Below are positions 1,119 to 6,650 of a DNA stretch of 6,650 bases, one piece after another. The DNA is from Candidatus Zixiibacteriota bacterium (GTDB lineage: Bacteria > RBG-13-66-14 > B26-G2 > WVWN01). The stretch spans positions 1-6,650 of the forward strand of contig JAUWLW010000078.1 of NCBI GenBank assembly GCA_030613505.1, given 5' to 3'. A program made the translations under genes and the position numbers. The stretch's first letter is position 1, and every line of letters starts with the position of its first letter. The notes beneath the pieces are model-generated. The model was not told the origin of the DNA. It saw nothing but the letters and a program-made list of their open reading frames with translations, and made no database searches.

Positions 1119-1880
1119 TTAGCGTACGCGGTATTCTTCTTCGTACGTAATCAGGTTATACTCGGCGAGGTCGGCCCGGGCGAGGACCGCCGGCATCGGC
1201 CCCGCCGCGCCCAGCTCGCCGCCGGCCTTCATTAGATATCCGCGCGTGGCGAGCTCGCGCGCCGCCGCCACCTCGTGGGTCGCGAACACCAGCGTCGTTC
1301 CCCGCGCCTCGTTGAGCTCCCTCAAATAGGATATCACCCGCTCGCGGGCCGCCGGGTCGAGCCACTCCAGCGGTTCGTCGAGCACCAACAGCTCGGGCGA
1401 CGTCACCAAAGCCCCCGCCAGCGCCACCAACCTCTTCTCGCCGCCCGAGACGTAGTGCACGACCTTGCCGGCGAGTTTCTCTATTTCCAACGCGGCGAGG
1501 ACGTCGCCCACGCGACGGGTGACTTCCTCGCGCGGCATCGCCAAATTACGCGGCGTGAACGCGACGTCGTCGAAGACGGTGGGGCCCAGGATCTGTTCGT
1601 CCACGTTCTGGAGGACGACGCCGATGCGGCCCACCAGCCGGTCGAACTCGCGGGCCGGGTTCAAGCCGAAAACGCGCACGTCGCCGTCGACGGGTTCGAG
1701 CATCCCCAGGATGTGTTTGAGGAGCGTGGTCTTGCCGCAGCCGTTGGGGCCGAGGATGGCGACCCGTTCGCCCGGGTATATTTCGAAGTCGAGGCCGCAG
1801 ATGTCGACCTCCGTCCGGTCGCCGTAGACGTGGCGGACGCACCGCACCGAGACTATCGGCTCAGAGGTATATTCGGCCAT
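1119..1880 (-). CDS. cbiO: ECF-type metal transporter ATP-binding protein (CbiO/EcfA)
   Basis: A 253-aa ABC ATPase that would sit on the cytoplasmic face and power uptake through the CbiQ and CbiM proteins encoded just upstream. All core motifs are intact: Walker A GPNGCGKT (44-51), Q-loop Gln91 in VVLQNVDEQ, signature SGGEKR (145-150), Walker B LLVLDEP (164-170) with catalytic Glu169, a D-loop LDP (174-176) and the H-loop His202 in ATHE. The LxxxDEQ Q-loop context and the SGGEKR signature are typical of the CbiO/EcfA group. One detail is unusual: the stretch after Walker B is LEWLDP instead of the common T-S/A-G-LDP. Only one ATPase gene is present, so a homodimer is likely, as in other group I ECF importers. 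The first codons overlap the last 20 nt of the EcfT gene and there is no convincing ribosome binding site, which suggests translational coupling. Confidence 0.95.
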   Translation of the reverse strand: MAEYTSEPIVSVRCVRHVYGDRTEVDICGLDFEIYPGERVAILGPNGCGKTTLLKHILGMLEPVDGDVRVFGLNPAREFDRLVGRIGVVLQNVDEQILGPTVFDDVAFTPRNLAMPREEVTRRVGDVLAALEIEKLAGKVVHYVSGGEKRLVALAGALVTSPELLVLDEPLEWLDPAARERVISYLRELNEARGTTLVFATHEVAAARELATRGYLMKAGGELGAAGPMPAVLARADLAEYNLITYEEEYRVR

Positions 1881-2478
1881 TGAAGCCCCGCACTTTGAGC
1901 GCCGCGGCGGCGTTCTCGGAGCGCTCGAGCGCCGCCGATACTACGTACCCCACCGCCCGGCCGGTGTTGGTTACGAAGCGGCGGGGCCGGCGCCACCCGG
2001 GCGCGCCCCGCAGGCGGTACGCGGTCCGCACGTCGCGCGCCACGGCCGCGAGTATGAATATGGCGCGGTAACTTAAAAAGAGGCCTGCGACCAGAAATTT
2101 CGGCAGAAACCGCGCCGCGGCCAGCAGCCGCGGCAGCGGCGTCGTCGCCACGAGCAACAGGACCGTGAGCGCCACCGACATGACCCGCACCGCGAAGTAC
2201 AATACGGCGAAGACGTCCAGGCCCTGCACGCTGAAGAACAAGAACGTCAGAAAGACCAGCGGGTACGCCGACGCCGCCAGTATGCGCCGCGCCGGCAGTC
2301 GCGACGTGAAAAGAAACGCGAGCAGCACGACGTACAGCGCGCCGTAGAACAGGAAGTCGTAGACGAATATTATGGCCGCGACGACGCCGGCGAGCCAGAC
2401 CAGCTTGAGCCACGTCGGCACGCGGTGCAGCCACCCGCCGCCGCTGGTCGCCCAGTAGTCGAGGTCTTCGAAGAACAT
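1861..2478 (-). CDS. cbiQ: ECF transporter transmembrane coupling component (CbiQ/EcfT)
   Basis: A 205-aa integral inner-membrane protein that links the ATPase to the substrate component. Long hydrophobic segments lie at about residues 23-40, 42-58, 66-85 and 88-112, with further ones near 125-147. It carries the two Arg-Gly motifs that EcfT proteins use to dock in the ATPase grooves: RLRG (155-158) within the coupling region, and KVRG (195-198) in AALKVRGFNG near the C-terminus. The start MFFEDLD is chosen because its ATG overlaps the TAA of the CbiM gene by one base (TAATG). The frame stays open much further upstream, but that extension is arginine-rich, lies antiparallel in register to cbiM coding sequence and has no membrane or family features. 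No ribosome binding site is visible, so translation probably depends on ribosomes finishing CbiM. The length is slightly short for the family but the ends look complete. Confidence 0.93.
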   Translation of the reverse strand: MFFEDLDYWATSGGGWLHRVPTWLKLVWLAGVVAAIIFVYDFLFYGALYVVLLAFLFTSRLPARRILAASAYPLVFLTFLFFSVQGLDVFAVLYFAVRVMSVALTVLLLVATTPLPRLLAAARFLPKFLVAGLFLSYRAIFILAAVARDVRTAYRLRGAPGWRRPRRFVTNTGRAVGYVVSAALERSENAAAALKVRGFNGRIYL

Positions 2479-3200
2479 TACGTCGCTTTCGGCAAAAGGC
2501 GCGGCGCGGCCTTCTTGAGGTACGCCGCCACCGTGGCCGTTACCAGGGCCTCCAAGACCCAGCCGACGGCGCCCAGGCCGAAGAAGAGGGCGGCCAGACG
2601 CCCGGGCGATACGCTGCCGTGGCTTTCGCCGGCGCGGTGCTCTTCGTGTCGGTCGTGGCCGTCGAACAGCTCGAAGGCGACGACGCTGCCGCGGCCTCGC
2701 TCGACGACGTCGCCGAAGTCGCGCGTCCCCACGACCACGACGCCGTACGCCAGCGTCGTAGCCGCGGCGACCGCCACCAGCGTAGCGACGAACGCGCGGG
2801 GCCACGTCGCTTTAATGAACGCCGCGGCGCGGAAGACGGCGAAGGCCGCGAGCGCCTCGGCGCCCAACGTCAGCGTGTTCAGGCCGATTACGGTAATGCC
2901 GCCGTGGCCCAAAAGCGCGAGTATGACGTTGGCGAACAGGCAGGCCAGGAGCGCCGCCGCCGGCCCGGCCACGATGCCCGCCAGCGCCGCCAGGTTAAGG
3001 TGGTACCCCAGCGGCGCGACGTGGAAAGACATGGCCACGACCATGAGCGCGGCGAAGAATCCCGCCCGGGCGAAGACGACCAGGTTGCGGGCCCGCCGGA
3101 ACTTCAGCCACAGGAGAACCAAAACGGCGGCCACGACGGCGTAGCCGGCCGCCCACAGGTAGAAAGGTAGAACGCCGTCCGGGAGGTGGAGGTGAGCCAT
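2478..3200 (-). CDS. cbiM: ECF transporter substrate-binding membrane component for Co2+ or Ni2+ (CbiM/NikM family)
   Basis: A 240-aa polytopic membrane protein. The N-terminus MAHLHLPDGVLP matches the family's HIPDG metal-binding N-terminus but carries three extra residues. His60 and His67 (SFHVAPLGYHLN) lie in the second helix region and loop where a further metal ligand is expected, followed by the family motif GHGGITVIGLNTL (98-110). Hydrophobic segments lie at about 13-33, 41-60, 70-97, 112-130, 135-158 and 203-228. A His-rich loop (DGHDRHEEHRAGESH, 180-194) separates the last two. The family binds Co2+ or Ni2+; the sequence does not decide between them, and no cobalamin gene or hydrogenase/urease gene is in view. 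No CbiN gene is present. The start follows the NfeD stop by 34 nt and has no clear Shine-Dalgarno sequence. No in-frame start codon was found just upstream of it, and a later start would remove the metal site. Confidence 0.92.
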   Translation of the reverse strand: MAHLHLPDGVLPFYLWAAGYAVVAAVLVLLWLKFRRARNLVVFARAGFFAALMVVAMSFHVAPLGYHLNLAALAGIVAGPAAALLACLFANVILALLGHGGITVIGLNTLTLGAEALAAFAVFRAAAFIKATWPRAFVATLVAVAAATTLAYGVVVVGTRDFGDVVERGRGSVVAFELFDGHDRHEEHRAGESHGSVSPGRLAALFFGLGAVGWVLEALVTATVAAYLKKAAPRLLPKAT

Positions 3201-3234
3201 AGCGCTTCGTCGAACCGTTCGCCGGCGCGGCGAC

Positions 3235-4527
3235 TTACGCGATGCGGCGGACTTCCACTAACAGGCCGTCGGCGCGGACCACTTCCACCGTCGCGCCCGC
3301 TGGTATCGCCTCGGCCGCGGTGGCCCGCCAGTACTCGCCGCGGACGTGGACCTGGCCGCCCGTCGGCCCCACCGCCGTCGTGGCCCGGCCGCGCTCGCCC
3401 ACCATCCCCTTGTCGCCGGTGGTGGGCTTGCGGCGCTGGGCGCGCAGGCCCATCCCCACGGCGAACAGGAAAAAGAGCAGCGTCGTGACCACCGCCGGGA
3501 TGATGACGGCCCAGGATATCTGCAGGTATTGCGCGGGCGTATTTATGAGTAAAATCGAACCGAGCAGCATCGAGATCGTTCCTCCTACGGCGAGCAGGCC
3601 GTGGCTGGTTATCTTTATCTCGGCCAGGAAGAGGATTACGGCAAAAAGTATGAGCGCTACGCCGGCGTAGTTCACCGGCAGCGTCGACAGCGCGTAGAAG
3701 GCGAGGATGATGCAGATGCCGCCCACCACCCCCGGCAGGATGGAGCCGGGGTTGGAGAGCTCGAAGATAAGGCCGTAGAAGCCGAGGATGAGGAGGATGT
3801 AGGCCACGTTGGGGTTGGTCAGGACGGCGAGTAAGCGCTGGCGGAAGTCGGGCGTCAGCTCCTCGACGCGGGCGCCCTTCGTCTTTATGACGACGATGCG
3901 GCCCGCGGCCTTAACCTTTCGGCCGTGCACCTTCTTTAGCAGCTCGTCGAGGTTCTCGGCGACGAAGTCGACGACGTTCTCCGCCACGGCGTCCTCCGCC
4001 GAGAGCGACGCCGACTTGCGGACGGCGAGCTCGGCCCACTTCTCGTTGCGGCCTCGCCGCCGCGCCAGGCTCTTGATGTAGGAGGCGGCGTCGTTGGTTA
4101 TCTTATCCACCATGGCCGCGTCGGCGCCCTCGCCGCCCGAGCCCAGCGTCACCGGGTGGGCCGCGCCGATGGAGGTGTTGGGGGCCATCGCGGCGACGTG
4201 CGCCGCCAGCGTGATGAAGGTCCCCGCGCTCGCCGCCCGGCCGCCCGGAGGCCACACGTACACCGCCACCGGCACCTTCGACGCCAGGATCTTCTTGATT
4301 ATCTTGCGCATCGACGGGTCGAGGCCGCCGGGGGTATCGAGCGAGACGACCACCAACGACGCGCGGTCCGCCTCCGCCTCTTCTATGCCCTCGACGATGA
4401 ACTCCGCCATGATGGGGCTGACGACGCCCTCTATCTTGAGGTGGCGAACGAGGGGGGCGTCGGCCGCGAGGGCCGCGGCCGCAAACGCCGCCACTAACAA
4501 TCCCGTGAATCTAATTATTGTTTTCAT
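3235..4527 (-). CDS. nfeD: Full-length NfeD membrane-bound serine protease (ClpP-class domain plus NfeD domain)
   Basis: A 430-aa protein. Residues 1-22 form a signal peptide or N-terminal anchor ending AALAAD. Residues about 25-220 are a ClpP-class protease domain: SLDTPGG (62-68), then PPGGRAASAGTF with the likely catalytic Ser100, and Lys142 in DKITND as the likely dyad partner. Residues about 240-360 hold several membrane segments, and residues 367-430 form the OB-fold NfeD domain (GMVGERGRA, VHVRGEYWRA). This long architecture is usually encoded beside a stomatin/SPFH protein, which it is thought to process or assist in membrane quality control. No such gene is in the window. The ATG lies in an ATGA overlap with the stop of the upstream lipoprotein gene and lacks a ribosome binding site, implying coupled translation. 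An open frame continues 105 nt further upstream, but that start would leave a charged extension before the signal sequence. Confidence 0.94.
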   Translation of the reverse strand: MKTIIRFTGLLVAAFAAAALAADAPLVRHLKIEGVVSPIMAEFIVEGIEEAEADRASLVVVSLDTPGGLDPSMRKIIKKILASKVPVAVYVWPPGGRAASAGTFITLAAHVAAMAPNTSIGAAHPVTLGSGGEGADAAMVDKITNDAASYIKSLARRRGRNEKWAELAVRKSASLSAEDAVAENVVDFVAENLDELLKKVHGRKVKAAGRIVVIKTKGARVEELTPDFRQRLLAVLTNPNVAYILLILGFYGLIFELSNPGSILPGVVGGICIILAFYALSTLPVNYAGVALILFAVILFLAEIKITSHGLLAVGGTISMLLGSILLINTPAQYLQISWAVIIPAVVTTLLFFLFAVGMGLRAQRRKPTTGDKGMVGERGRATTAVGPTGGQVHVRGEYWRATAAEAIPAGATVEVVRADGLLVEVRRIA

Positions 4528-5123
4528 ATTGTATAGAATACGGCAAGTACGCTGCCCAAAGTCGTAGGCCGAAGGGCCGCGGGTGCCTCGTCGCAGTAGC
4601 GGCCGCGGTCTTGCCATTCCGTAAGGCGCCAATGCTTCCCGCCGCCTTCGGCGAGGTAGCGTTCGAACGCAAAGGTGGACGCGCTATTGGCGATATAACC
4701 GTTAAGCTCGTCCAGCATGGCCAACAGCTCCACGGGCACGTTTTCCGCTTGGTACTCCGTCGCTTCCGGCCGCGGCTCGCCGACGCTGCCGGTTTCGATA
4801 GATAACGAGATCGTGTGCGCCTTTTTAAACATTTTGGCAGCCGCTCTCAAGAATTCCGTTCTGGTCCAAGATTCCGGGATCACGTATTGGCTAACGCCGG
4901 GCGGCCTTCGGCCTACGTCCCGCGGGTCGAAATGGAAAACGAACTCCGGGCTCAGTACCAGCTCGAGAAGATCGGTGTTGCGTTGGTTAAAAGATATCTC
5001 GACATCTTTGAGCGCCGCGACGGGCGAGGTGGGTGTGGGGTAACCCGGAGAGAGAGTTTCTTCCTCGCCGCAGGCCAATAGTAATACGGCGACGGCTAGA
5101 GATGCAATTATTAACTTCTTCAC
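4524..5123 (-). CDS. Lipoprotein of an unnamed tandem family, most divergent copy
   Basis: A 199-aa protein starting at GTG (5123-5121), supported by GGGAGG with a 7-nt spacer. The signal peptide MKKLIIASLAVAVLLLAC has a lipobox-like LLAC with lipidatable Cys18, followed by an acidic, Pro/Thr-rich linker (GEEETLSPGYPTPTSP). The core shares with its neighbours ISFNQRN, LLELVLSPEF, FDPRDVGRRPPG, a YVIPESW motif, the Met-Phe-xx-Ala segment and a final WRLT-W-DR stretch before TTLGSVLAVFY. It differs from the other copies in having no GYCN motif (NSAS at that place), no tandem Trp pair, and a cysteine moved to GRYCDE. No known enzyme motif is seen. The fold may be NTF2-like, judged only from size and the Trp-rich closing strand. 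Its TGA overlaps the NfeD start by four bases, tying the two proteins' synthesis together. Confidence 0.85.
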   Translation of the reverse strand: MKKLIIASLAVAVLLLACGEEETLSPGYPTPTSPVAALKDVEISFNQRNTDLLELVLSPEFVFHFDPRDVGRRPPGVSQYVIPESWTRTEFLRAAAKMFKKAHTISLSIETGSVGEPRPEATEYQAENVPVELLAMLDELNGYIANSASTFAFERYLAEGGGKHWRLTEWQDRGRYCDEAPAALRPTTLGSVLAVFYTI

Positions 5124-5135
5124 GTCGTGACCTCC

Positions 5136-5726
5136 CTATCTAAACAGCGCTAATACCTTCCCGAGCGACGCGGGCCCCACGCCCGGATATTCGTCGAAGG
5201 ACTCGCTCGTCCGGTCCCACCATCCCGTAAGGCGCCAATACTTCTTGCCCGCGGCCGACTCGTACCTCTCAAACTCGAAGTTGCAGTAACCCTGGTCGGC
5301 GATGAAGCCGTTGAGGGAGTCTATCATTACCAGAAGCGATATCGATATGTTCTCCGCCTTGTATTCGGTCTCGTTTTCACCGGGCGTCCCGACGCGTTCG
5401 GTCGGGATGGAAAGCGAGATGGAGTACGCCTGGTTGTACATGTTGTTTACGGCCTCCCGGAACTCGTTATACGACCACGACTCCGGGATTATGTAATGCT
5501 TCCCCGGCGGGGTCTTCCCCACGTCGCGCGGGTCGAAGTAGAAGACGAAATCGGTGCTGAGCACGAGCTCGAGCAGCTCGGCGTTCCGTTGGTTGAAAGA
5601 TATCGCGACGTCGGTAAGGACGACGGCGGGGGACGTGGGCTCGGGCTTAGGCGGCGGGGGCTCCTCCTTGAAACAGGCGAGGCCGAGCAGCGCTAAGGCC
5701 GCGGCCAATGATACCATTCTCTTCAT
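5136..5726 (-). CDS. Lipoprotein of an unnamed tandem family, third copy in transcription order
   Basis: A 196-aa protein. The signal peptide MKRMVSLAAALALLGLAC leads to Cys18, the probable lipid-modified residue, although Gly at -3 and Leu at -2 make the lipobox weak. A Pro/Glu linker (FKEEPPPPKPEPTSP) tethers the core. The core carries ISFNQRN, FVFYFDPRDVG, YIIPESW, LSIPTERVGTPGENET, YKAENISISLLVMI, GYCNFEFERY and KKYWRLTGWWDRTS. The start at 5726 is chosen over a longer open frame reaching 5834 because that extension overlaps the previous paralogue, while ATG 5726 has GGAGG at 7 nt and gives the same signal peptide as the next paralogue. Function is unknown. With membrane attachment and no catalytic signature, a binding or structural role is plausible but unproven. 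It ends 12 nt before the next lipoprotein gene. Confidence 0.88.
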   Translation of the reverse strand: MKRMVSLAAALALLGLACFKEEPPPPKPEPTSPAVVLTDVAISFNQRNAELLELVLSTDFVFYFDPRDVGKTPPGKHYIIPESWSYNEFREAVNNMYNQAYSISLSIPTERVGTPGENETEYKAENISISLLVMIDSLNGFIADQGYCNFEFERYESAAGKKYWRLTGWWDRTSESFDEYPGVGPASLGKVLALFR

Positions 5727-5749
5727 ACAAAAGCCTCCGTTTTTTTCGA
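5727..5749 (-). promoter_or_regulatory. Duplicated intergenic leader with ribosome binding site (copy 1)
   Basis: Reading on the minus strand, a T/A-rich run follows the upstream stop, then ACGGAGGCTTTTGT leads to the ATG. GGAGG is 7 nt from the start codon. The sequence is nearly the same as that at 6356-6379 apart from a one-base indel and a few substitutions. No -10/-35 pair or terminator hairpin is visible, so it is best read as a translation leader within an operon. Confidence 0.7.
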
Positions 5750-6355
5750 TTAATAGTACGTCGCTAATACCTTCCCGAGGGATGCAGGCGTCAGGCCCGG
5801 GTATTCGTCGTAACCCTGGCTCGTCCGATCCCACCAGCCGGTAAGGCGCCAGTACTTCTTACCCGCGGCCGACTCGTACCGCTCGAACTCGAAATTGCAA
5901 TAACCGTTATCGGCGACGTAGCCGTAGAGCTCGTTTATCATTACCAGAAGCGATATCGATACGTTCTCAGCTTTATATTTCGTTTCGTTTTCGCCGGGGG
6001 TGCCGACGCGGCCCGTGGGGATCGATAGTTTTATCGAGTAGGCCTCATCGAACATATTTTTTACGGCCTGTAAGAATTCGGTGCGCGACCACGACTCCGG
6101 GATTTTATATTCAGGTTTCTCCGGCGGGCTTCGGCCCACGTCGCGCGGGTCGAAGTAGAAGACGAAGTTCTCGCTGAGCATGGCCTTGAGGAGGTTGATG
6201 TTACTTTGGTTAAAAGATATCTCGACGTTCTTGAGGACGCCCGCGGGGGACGTGGCCTCGACGCGGTCTATCTCGCGCGGCATAACGCTCTCCTCCTCGA
6301 AGCAAGCGAGCGTCGTAAGCGCCAAGGCCGCGGCCAAGGATACCATTCTCTTCAT
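5750..6355 (-). CDS. Lipoprotein of an unnamed tandem family, second copy in transcription order
   Basis: A 201-aa protein with signal peptide MKRMVSLAAALALTTLAC; Cys18 is the expected lipidation site in a degenerate lipobox (TLAC). The first 13 residues match the downstream copy exactly. After the cysteine comes an unrelated, charged linker (FEEESVMPREIDRVEATSP). The core repeats ISFNQSN, FVFYFDPRDVG, YKIPESW, MFDEAYSI, SIPTGRVGTPGENET, YKAENVSISLLVMI, GYCNFEFERY and KKYWRLTGWWDRTS, ending LGKVLATYY. The segment from GYCN to DRTS (29 residues) is identical to the downstream copy, whereas the middle and linker have drifted. The ATG is preceded by GGAGG with a 7-nt spacer. The gene lies 24 nt after the upstream copy and 23 nt before the next. 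Confidence 0.88.
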   Translation of the reverse strand: MKRMVSLAAALALTTLACFEEESVMPREIDRVEATSPAGVLKNVEISFNQSNINLLKAMLSENFVFYFDPRDVGRSPPEKPEYKIPESWSRTEFLQAVKNMFDEAYSIKLSIPTGRVGTPGENETKYKAENVSISLLVMINELYGYVADNGYCNFEFERYESAAGKKYWRLTGWWDRTSQGYDEYPGLTPASLGKVLATYY

Positions 6356-6379
6356 ATAAAAGCCTCCGTTTTATTTCTA
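6356..6379 (-). promoter_or_regulatory. Duplicated intergenic leader with ribosome binding site (copy 2)
   Basis: The minus strand reads AACGGAGGCTTTTAT before ATG, with the same GGAGG and 7-nt spacer as the leader at 5727-5749. It shows that the duplication unit included the non-coding leader. Confidence 0.7.
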
Positions 6380-6650
6380 CTAATAGTACATCGCTAAGAC
6401 CCTGCCCAGCGACGCAGGTTCAACGCCGGGACTTCCGTCGTAACCCTGGCTCGTCCGGTCCCACCAGCCGGTAAGGCGCCAGTACTTCTTACCCGCGGCC
6501 GACTCGTATGGCTCGAACTCGTAATTACAATATCCGTGGTCCACTATAAACCCGTTGAGCTCGTCGACCATAACGAGTAAAGAAAGAGATATGTTATCCG
6601 CTCTGTACGTGGTCTCATTCTCGCCGGGGGTCCCGACGCGGCCCGTAGGT
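6380..6650 (-). CDS. Lipoprotein of an unnamed tandem family, first visible copy (5' end outside window)
   Basis: The last 89 codons or so of a fourth paralogue, ending in TAG. Reading in from the edge gives PTGRVGTPGENETTYRADN, then SLSLLVMVDELNGF, GYCNYEFEPYES, KKYWRLTGWWDRTSQGYD and LGRVLAMYY, colinear with the complete copies. The reading frame is open to the window edge, so the gene is not broken here. An internal ATG at 6571 is only a conserved methionine (LLVMVDEL), not the start. By alignment roughly 110 residues, including signal peptide and tether, should lie beyond the window. More copies may follow. Confidence 0.85.
   Translation of the reverse strand, partial: PTGRVGTPGENETTYRADNISLSLLVMVDELNGFIVDHGYCNYEFEPYESAAGKKYWRLTGWWDRTSQGYDGSPGVEPASLGRVLAMYY

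Follow-up and report, generated by a model that had tools for sequence, protein, structure and literature searches.

What might a bacterium use a tandem run of paralogous lipoproteins for when these belong to no named family, and can an answer be read from features that they share with other proteins of the same cell? This question is raised by the right-hand part of contig C89, which was analysed in full (6650 bp, here referred to as the window). The contig belongs to an uncultured bacterium of a phylum here called Coatesbacteria, with a genome (G000) of 2.86 Mb in 100 contigs that is 93% complete. A first-pass annotation of the window described the lipoproteins and overlooked the C-terminal tail common to the array copies, a variant of SLGkvlALFR. 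This tail matches a tag at the very end of many other, mostly exported proteins, and the tag looks like a protein-sorting signal that has not been described before. The reading favoured here, to which we give about even credence, is that the 10-14 residue tag is the sorting signal of a SprA-dependent pathway and that the lipoproteins, of predicted NTF2-like fold, are tagged components of that pathway and perhaps receptors of the tag.

A C-terminal tag on the array copies and on other exported proteins

The array genes of the window all lie on the minus strand, namely W1 (4524..5123, 199 aa, GTG start, the most diverged in the window), W2 (5136..5726, 196 aa, ATG start), W3 (5750..6355, 201 aa) and W4 (6380..6649), which is cut by the contig end and retains its C-terminal 89 aa only. 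At least four paralogues in tandem had been proposed; the tandem arrangement holds, with three complete copies and one partial copy in the window. The segments thought to be common to all four genes (ISFNQ, FDPRDVG, IPESW, an M[FY] segment and WRLT.W.DR) are all found in W1-W3, and the part of the claim that concerns W4 extends to its C-terminal half, since ISFNQ, FDPRDVG, IPESW and the signal peptide are not visible in the truncated copy. As first described, every complete copy has a signal peptide and a lipobox cysteine at residue 18, read from the sequence as LLAC in W1 (Cys codon 5070..5072, minus strand), GLAC in W2 (5673..5675, minus) and TLAC in W3 (6302..6304, minus). A lipobox also occurs in nearly all relatives, and lipidation of the family is predicted accordingly. 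Identity to W3 among the array copies is 50-78%, far above chance.

The tails lie, again on the minus strand, at 4527..4568 in W1 (PTTLGSVLAVFYTI, divergent and two residues longer), 5139..5180 in W2 (VGPASLGKVLALFR), 5753..5794 in W3 (LTPASLGKVLATYY) and 6383..6424 in W4 (VEPASLGRVLAMYY). The tag was first exposed through an unrelated NHL-repeat gene on contig C59, in which the DNA match to the array is confined to the last codons. In G000, the pattern [S/T..][L/F/W]Gx[hydrophobic]xAx[FY]x-stop gives 120 matches and the reversed pattern 0. The open reading frames (ORFs) read as tag carriers were 100 of these 120, in selected stretches, and 89 non-array tails yielded the consensus V-x-P-[AT]-S-[LF]-G-[RK]-V-K-A-L-[FY]-[RK] (tag peptide, e.g., AVAPASLGRVKALFR). 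It is marked by V at -14 (77/89), P at -12 (86/89), R/K at -7, V at -6, K/R at -5, L at -3, then F/Y and mostly R or K as the last residue, and thus includes positions that the search pattern does not force. The third codon positions of the tag vary freely, which indicates that selection acts on the tag peptide. An origin of the tag as a DNA-level repeat is ruled out by this variation, by a spelling with W or L according to phylum, and by the absence of any tandem repeat found by TRF within the array part of the window.

A position-specific scoring matrix (PSSM) of the tag, trained without the array proteins, assigned 14.7 to the W1 tail (without its last two residues), 32.6 to W2, 21.3 to W3 and 31.5 to W4. 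The best of 833 non-motif C-termini scored 10.0, a value that was exceeded by 14/15 array tails. All array copies in G000 carry L or I at -5, where the tag has K, and the tail is absent from a lone family member on contig C15 (L010:4047-4622).

Tagged proteins in G000 are enriched in signal peptides by a strict test (61/84 tagged vs 14/150 untagged ORFs, p 1.5e-23), and 78 tag carriers fall into 12 sequence clusters that are mostly beta-propellers but include a cupredoxin and several unnamed families. The families that bear the consensus number at least 12 and are not related to each other. PEP-CTERM/exosortase and LPXTG/sortase tails are likewise short conserved C-terminal motifs on many unrelated exported proteins. 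However, the tag forms the last 10-14 residues of the protein and contains no transmembrane stretch, so that neither a hydrophobic stretch after the motif nor the PEP-CTERM/exosortase layout of motif, transmembrane helix and basic end is present.

Among 386 genomes, 53 match a stricter tag pattern and almost none match its reversed control. Outside Coatesbacteria, the tag reads [ST]-W-G-x-[IV]-K-A-x-[YF]-[RK] and stands on proteins with signal peptides, and in several genomes a single protein bears it. Among such carriers, which are the only or almost the only tagged proteins of their genome, eleven are mutually related, have ~130 residues, are FN3-like by inspection and end in TWG[SA]IKA[MLI]FR. 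FN3-like small secreted carriers are located at L179-L188 and L165:8471-8896; one of them was tested and had no Pfam match.

Two tagged families also contain an in-frame TGA at matching positions, in G000 at L036, L067, L076 (four genes), L068 (three genes) and L082, and at about the same place at L191 of G115, which belongs to another phylum. The TGA contexts are mostly CxxU- or CU-like (CPG-TGA-GG, CG[TS]-TGA, GC-TGA), a hairpin follows downstream in most, and G000 has a tRNA-Sec above the gathering score (66.7 bits). Taken together, this indicates that these families are probably secreted selenoproteins. At L038, an NHL gene has a TGA in place of the Trp that is usual in its relatives (G-K-W-G), which is likely a nonsense change or an assembly error and not selenocysteine.

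Co-occurrence of the tag with SprA and the lipoprotein family

Association was assessed in genomes outside Coatesbacteria, of which 39 are tag-positive after removal of a false hit (G171), using statistics that ignore phylogeny. SprA_N was found in all tag-positive genomes (39/39) vs 57/333 tag-negative ones (Fisher 1e-26, phylogeny ignored). A lipoprotein profile built from Coatesbacteria only, with at most eight candidates scored per genome, hit 53 genomes, 52 of which are SprA-positive. Within SprA-positive genomes, the lipoprotein family was present in 35/39 tag-positive vs 17/57 tag-negative genomes (p 5e-9, phylogeny again ignored), and two more tag-positive genomes gave hits to the family in a deeper search.

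The host has the SprA/Sov protein by which a type IX translocon is recognised; it is encoded at L197:2811-8672 and comprises 1953 residues, scoring 313 bits against TIGR04189 (cut-off 200) and above cut-off against PF14349. Two tagged NHL genes directly adjoin sprA in G000, in divergent orientation, and three adjoin it in a second genome (G004). From the complete co-occurrence with SprA and from the tagged genes beside sprA we infer that the tag addresses proteins to a SprA-dependent route. In a further genome (G014), a tagged gene adjoins a gene that is PorD-like at 90 bits (cut-off 170) and has a PorV-family gene nearby at 42 bits (cut-off 90), both scores being below threshold. Downstream of sprA in G000 lie two TolQ/ExbB-like and two TolR/ExbD-like genes, 3/4 of which were confirmed by NCBIfam, and the locus represents components of the type IX secretion system (T9SS) outside Bacteroidota.

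The lipoprotein family often occurs in other phyla as a tandem pair, with one copy that ends in a TWGxLK-like tail and one that stops just after the domain. In tag-rich genomes, the lipoprotein tails show exactly the same form as the tag of the presumed cargo (SWGSIKALFR, TWGSIKAMYR). In several genomes the genes near the pair include pdxJ, secDF and one for an outer-membrane protein of 640-750 residues. The neighbourhood in L167, L168, L172, L173, L176 and L178 consists of the large outer-membrane protein, the NTF2-like pair, a polysaccharide deacetylase-like gene (PF04748), pdxJ, secD and secF, with an incomplete gene set in some. Homology between these outer-membrane proteins and the one encoded beside the C15 copy was weak (hmmsearch E 1.3e-7 against a single sequence; BLAST E 0.005) and was not used as proof.

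Known type IX signals are C-terminal domains (CTDs), ~100 aa and Ig-like in type A and 150-235 aa in type B, and have been described in review as restricted to Bacteroidota (PMC10202324; PMC12618676). The tag resembles CTDs of types A, B and C as a candidate C-terminal signal on Sec-exported proteins, in the presence of SprA, and in the position of some tagged genes beside T9SS genes. It differs in being linear, 10-14 residues long and predicted to be disordered in NHL carriers, and a signal of this kind would be a new variant, as the known ones are domains of ~100 residues or more. The array proteins gave no match to PF18962 (Por_Secre_tail, the type A CTD) in a Pfam scan, and the same family has 33 matches elsewhere in G000; since both occur together in this genome, the tag is ruled out as a replacement of type A CTDs. 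The tag strings tried were found in no open-licence paper searched, nor did any of these papers, six of which mention Coatesbacteria, join NTF2-like lipoproteins with type IX secretion; given the partial coverage, this argues only weakly for novelty. Should the tag prove to be a sorting signal, sequence alone would reveal the surface proteins of many uncultured bacteria, type IX-like secretion would extend well beyond Bacteroidota by means of a very short peptide where the known signals are whole domains, and lipoproteins without a family name would gain a testable function.

Fold of the lipoproteins and their possible role

The absence of a named family, noted at first from the sequence, was borne out by sequence searches, in which the array proteins gave no match in Pfam, NCBIfam or the PDB sequences, SnoaL and DUF4440 families included. 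The nearest approach to Pfam was that of one relative in another phylum to SnoaL_3, at E 0.014 only. An NTF2-like fold had been offered as a guess. AlphaFold, run on W3 with 16 paralogues, gave a mean predicted local distance difference test (pLDDT) score of 86 and a predicted template modelling score of 0.81; over most of the core, the pLDDT exceeds 90. The best Foldseek matches of the model are NTF2-like, i.e., 3rob (E 2.3e-5), SnoaL2 and scytalone dehydratase, and VIA-align superposed it on 3rob with Z 14.3 and a root-mean-square deviation of 2.0 over 122 residues. These matches support the guess and hence the view of the array proteins as predicted NTF2-like lipoproteins. With members of the NTF2-like superfamily (SnoaL, scytalone dehydratase, ketosteroid isomerase, 3rob) they share a predicted arrangement of N-terminal helices that cover a curved beta sheet (VIA Z 11-14), whereas they differ in having no Pfam or NCBIfam sequence match, in being lipoproteins encoded in a tandem array, and in an extra C-terminal strand and helix formed by the tag-like tail. 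In the W3 model, this part (residues 188-199; strand 188-190, helix 193-199) is ordered with a pLDDT of ~95, whereas in the AlphaFold model of an NHL carrier the tag (residues 307-321) stays below 50 beside a propeller at ~98. The contrast between the two models suggests that the NTF2-like domain may be shaped to accommodate the tag.

Ligand diversification or antigen-like variation, which had been put forward for the array, finds no support in the substitution pattern. The ratio of non-synonymous to synonymous substitution rates (dN/dS, NG86), computed for complete array genes in 83 usable pairs, has a median of 0.28 and a range of 0.19-0.42, which indicates purifying selection over the whole gene and no signature of antigenic variation; what is seen is a conserved core with a conserved tail. 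Antigen-like diversification was rejected on these values, which as a whole-gene measure still allow for selection at a few sites.

Under the sorting-signal reading, cargo would exit the cytoplasm by Sec, as its signal peptides indicate, and would end in a flexible tag of 10-14 residues of the form [ST]-[WL]-G-x-[IV]-K-A-x-[FY]-[RK]. The tag would then be recognised as an address by a type IX-like pathway that depends on SprA and takes the cargo across the outer membrane or onto it. The NTF2-like lipoproteins, held in a membrane by their lipid, would be tagged components with their own tail packed on the domain, as predicted for W3. By hypothesis, they would also read or hold the tag, acting as receptors or anchors in which the cargo tag takes the place of their own tail, with the tail-less copies as the open form. 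A receptor or shuttle role is played in the T9SS by SprF/PorP and PorV, which are outer-membrane beta-barrels, whereas the array proteins are NTF2-like lipoproteins. A more far-reaching version, which we regard as unlikely, is a cross-phylum sorting code in which the lipoproteins hold their own copy of the 10-residue tag in their structure and give it up for that of cargo on its way out via the type IX translocon, with both cargo (>100 proteins) and receptors (at least 15) expanded in Coatesbacteria.

Several points weigh against the sorting-signal reading. The lipoprotein family is present without the strict tag in 17-18 genomes, and since phylogeny was not corrected for in the associations, all three features (SprA, family and tag) may just be markers of a single broad group of related phyla. 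The 33 type A CTDs in G000 imply that T9SS cargo as a whole does not depend on the tag. In addition, L or I at -5 in the array tails is easier to reconcile with a tail packed on its own domain than with one on display, and lipid-anchored proteins are unusual as T9SS cargo.

The alternative that survives best, tentative and somewhat unlikely in our view, is that the array proteins are ordinary cargo, i.e., ligand-binding or enzymatic NTF2-like lipoproteins that carry the same address tag and were amplified for dosage or ligand range, without any reading of the tag. The match of the array tails to the tag would be expected in this case, as would the resemblance to SnoaL2, scytalone dehydratase and ketosteroid isomerase, NTF2-like folds usually being small-molecule binders or enzymes, and the expansion of the array in G000, where relatives have 2-11 copies. 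It fits less well with the association of the NTF2-like family with the tag inside SprA-positive genomes, or with the conserved tailed and tail-less pair in genomes that have a single tagged protein.

It seems improbable that the array tail is a structural C-terminal helix of the family only, with an ancestral or convergent likeness to the tag and no shared function. Such a helix would account for the predicted order of the tail on the domain, for the replacement of K at -5 and for the looser tails of relatives in other phyla, e.g., TWGVLRGDYRQ and SWGLLKGRNRL; yet a model trained on other proteins only placed 14/15 array tails above every non-motif C-terminus, and the tails in tag-rich genomes take the very form of the cargo tag. 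That the tag is a handle for another envelope process, such as C-terminal proteolytic control, covalent glycan or lipid attachment, or polymer assembly, would suit a short, linear, extreme C-terminal peptide that is disordered in NHL carriers and borne by Sec-exported proteins, but we give this little credence, as a link to type IX secretion is favoured by the 39/39 co-occurrence with SprA and by the position of tagged genes immediately next to sprA in two genomes.

Array layout, relatives and neighbouring genes

Extension to the right, proposed earlier as a way to count copies, led to contig C13, which carries a partial start and 11 complete copies in the same orientation. If the ends of C89 and C13 adjoin, with ~75 codons missing between them, the array would total at least 15 genes; the agreement in orientation is consistent with this arrangement and does not prove it. 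The array genes have a single orientation, are mostly 12-24 bp apart and are nearly all preceded by a ribosome-binding site, which suggests that they form one operon. The site of W1 (GGGAGGT, 5130..5136, minus strand) abuts the stop of W2, in keeping with tight operon spacing. For W2, the longest ORF extends to 5834, and the ATG at 5726 was taken as the start, with CGGAGG immediately upstream. A promoter and terminator scan of the array gave nothing above chance. Apart from the lone copy on C15, a distant family member lies off the array on contig C63.

A search of related genomes for the array had been proposed as well. A search of genomic contigs with a single array protein gave no match, while an alignment-based search found two relatives, one in Candidatus Coatesbacteria bin961 (CP070633.1) and one at L033 (WVWN01000060.1), which has 56% identity to the array family and is labelled Zixiibacteriota, possibly as a misassigned metagenome-assembled genome. 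With a profile of 16 copies, the family was found in 14/14 genomes searched from the phylum, with 2 to 18 matches each and often in tandem.

The rest of the contig encodes, at window positions 1119-4527, an ABC ATPase, CbiQ and CbiM, which form a cobalt-type uptake set, together with an NfeD/ClpP-like membrane protein, and two small genes resembling those of outer-membrane proteins at 2-1100.

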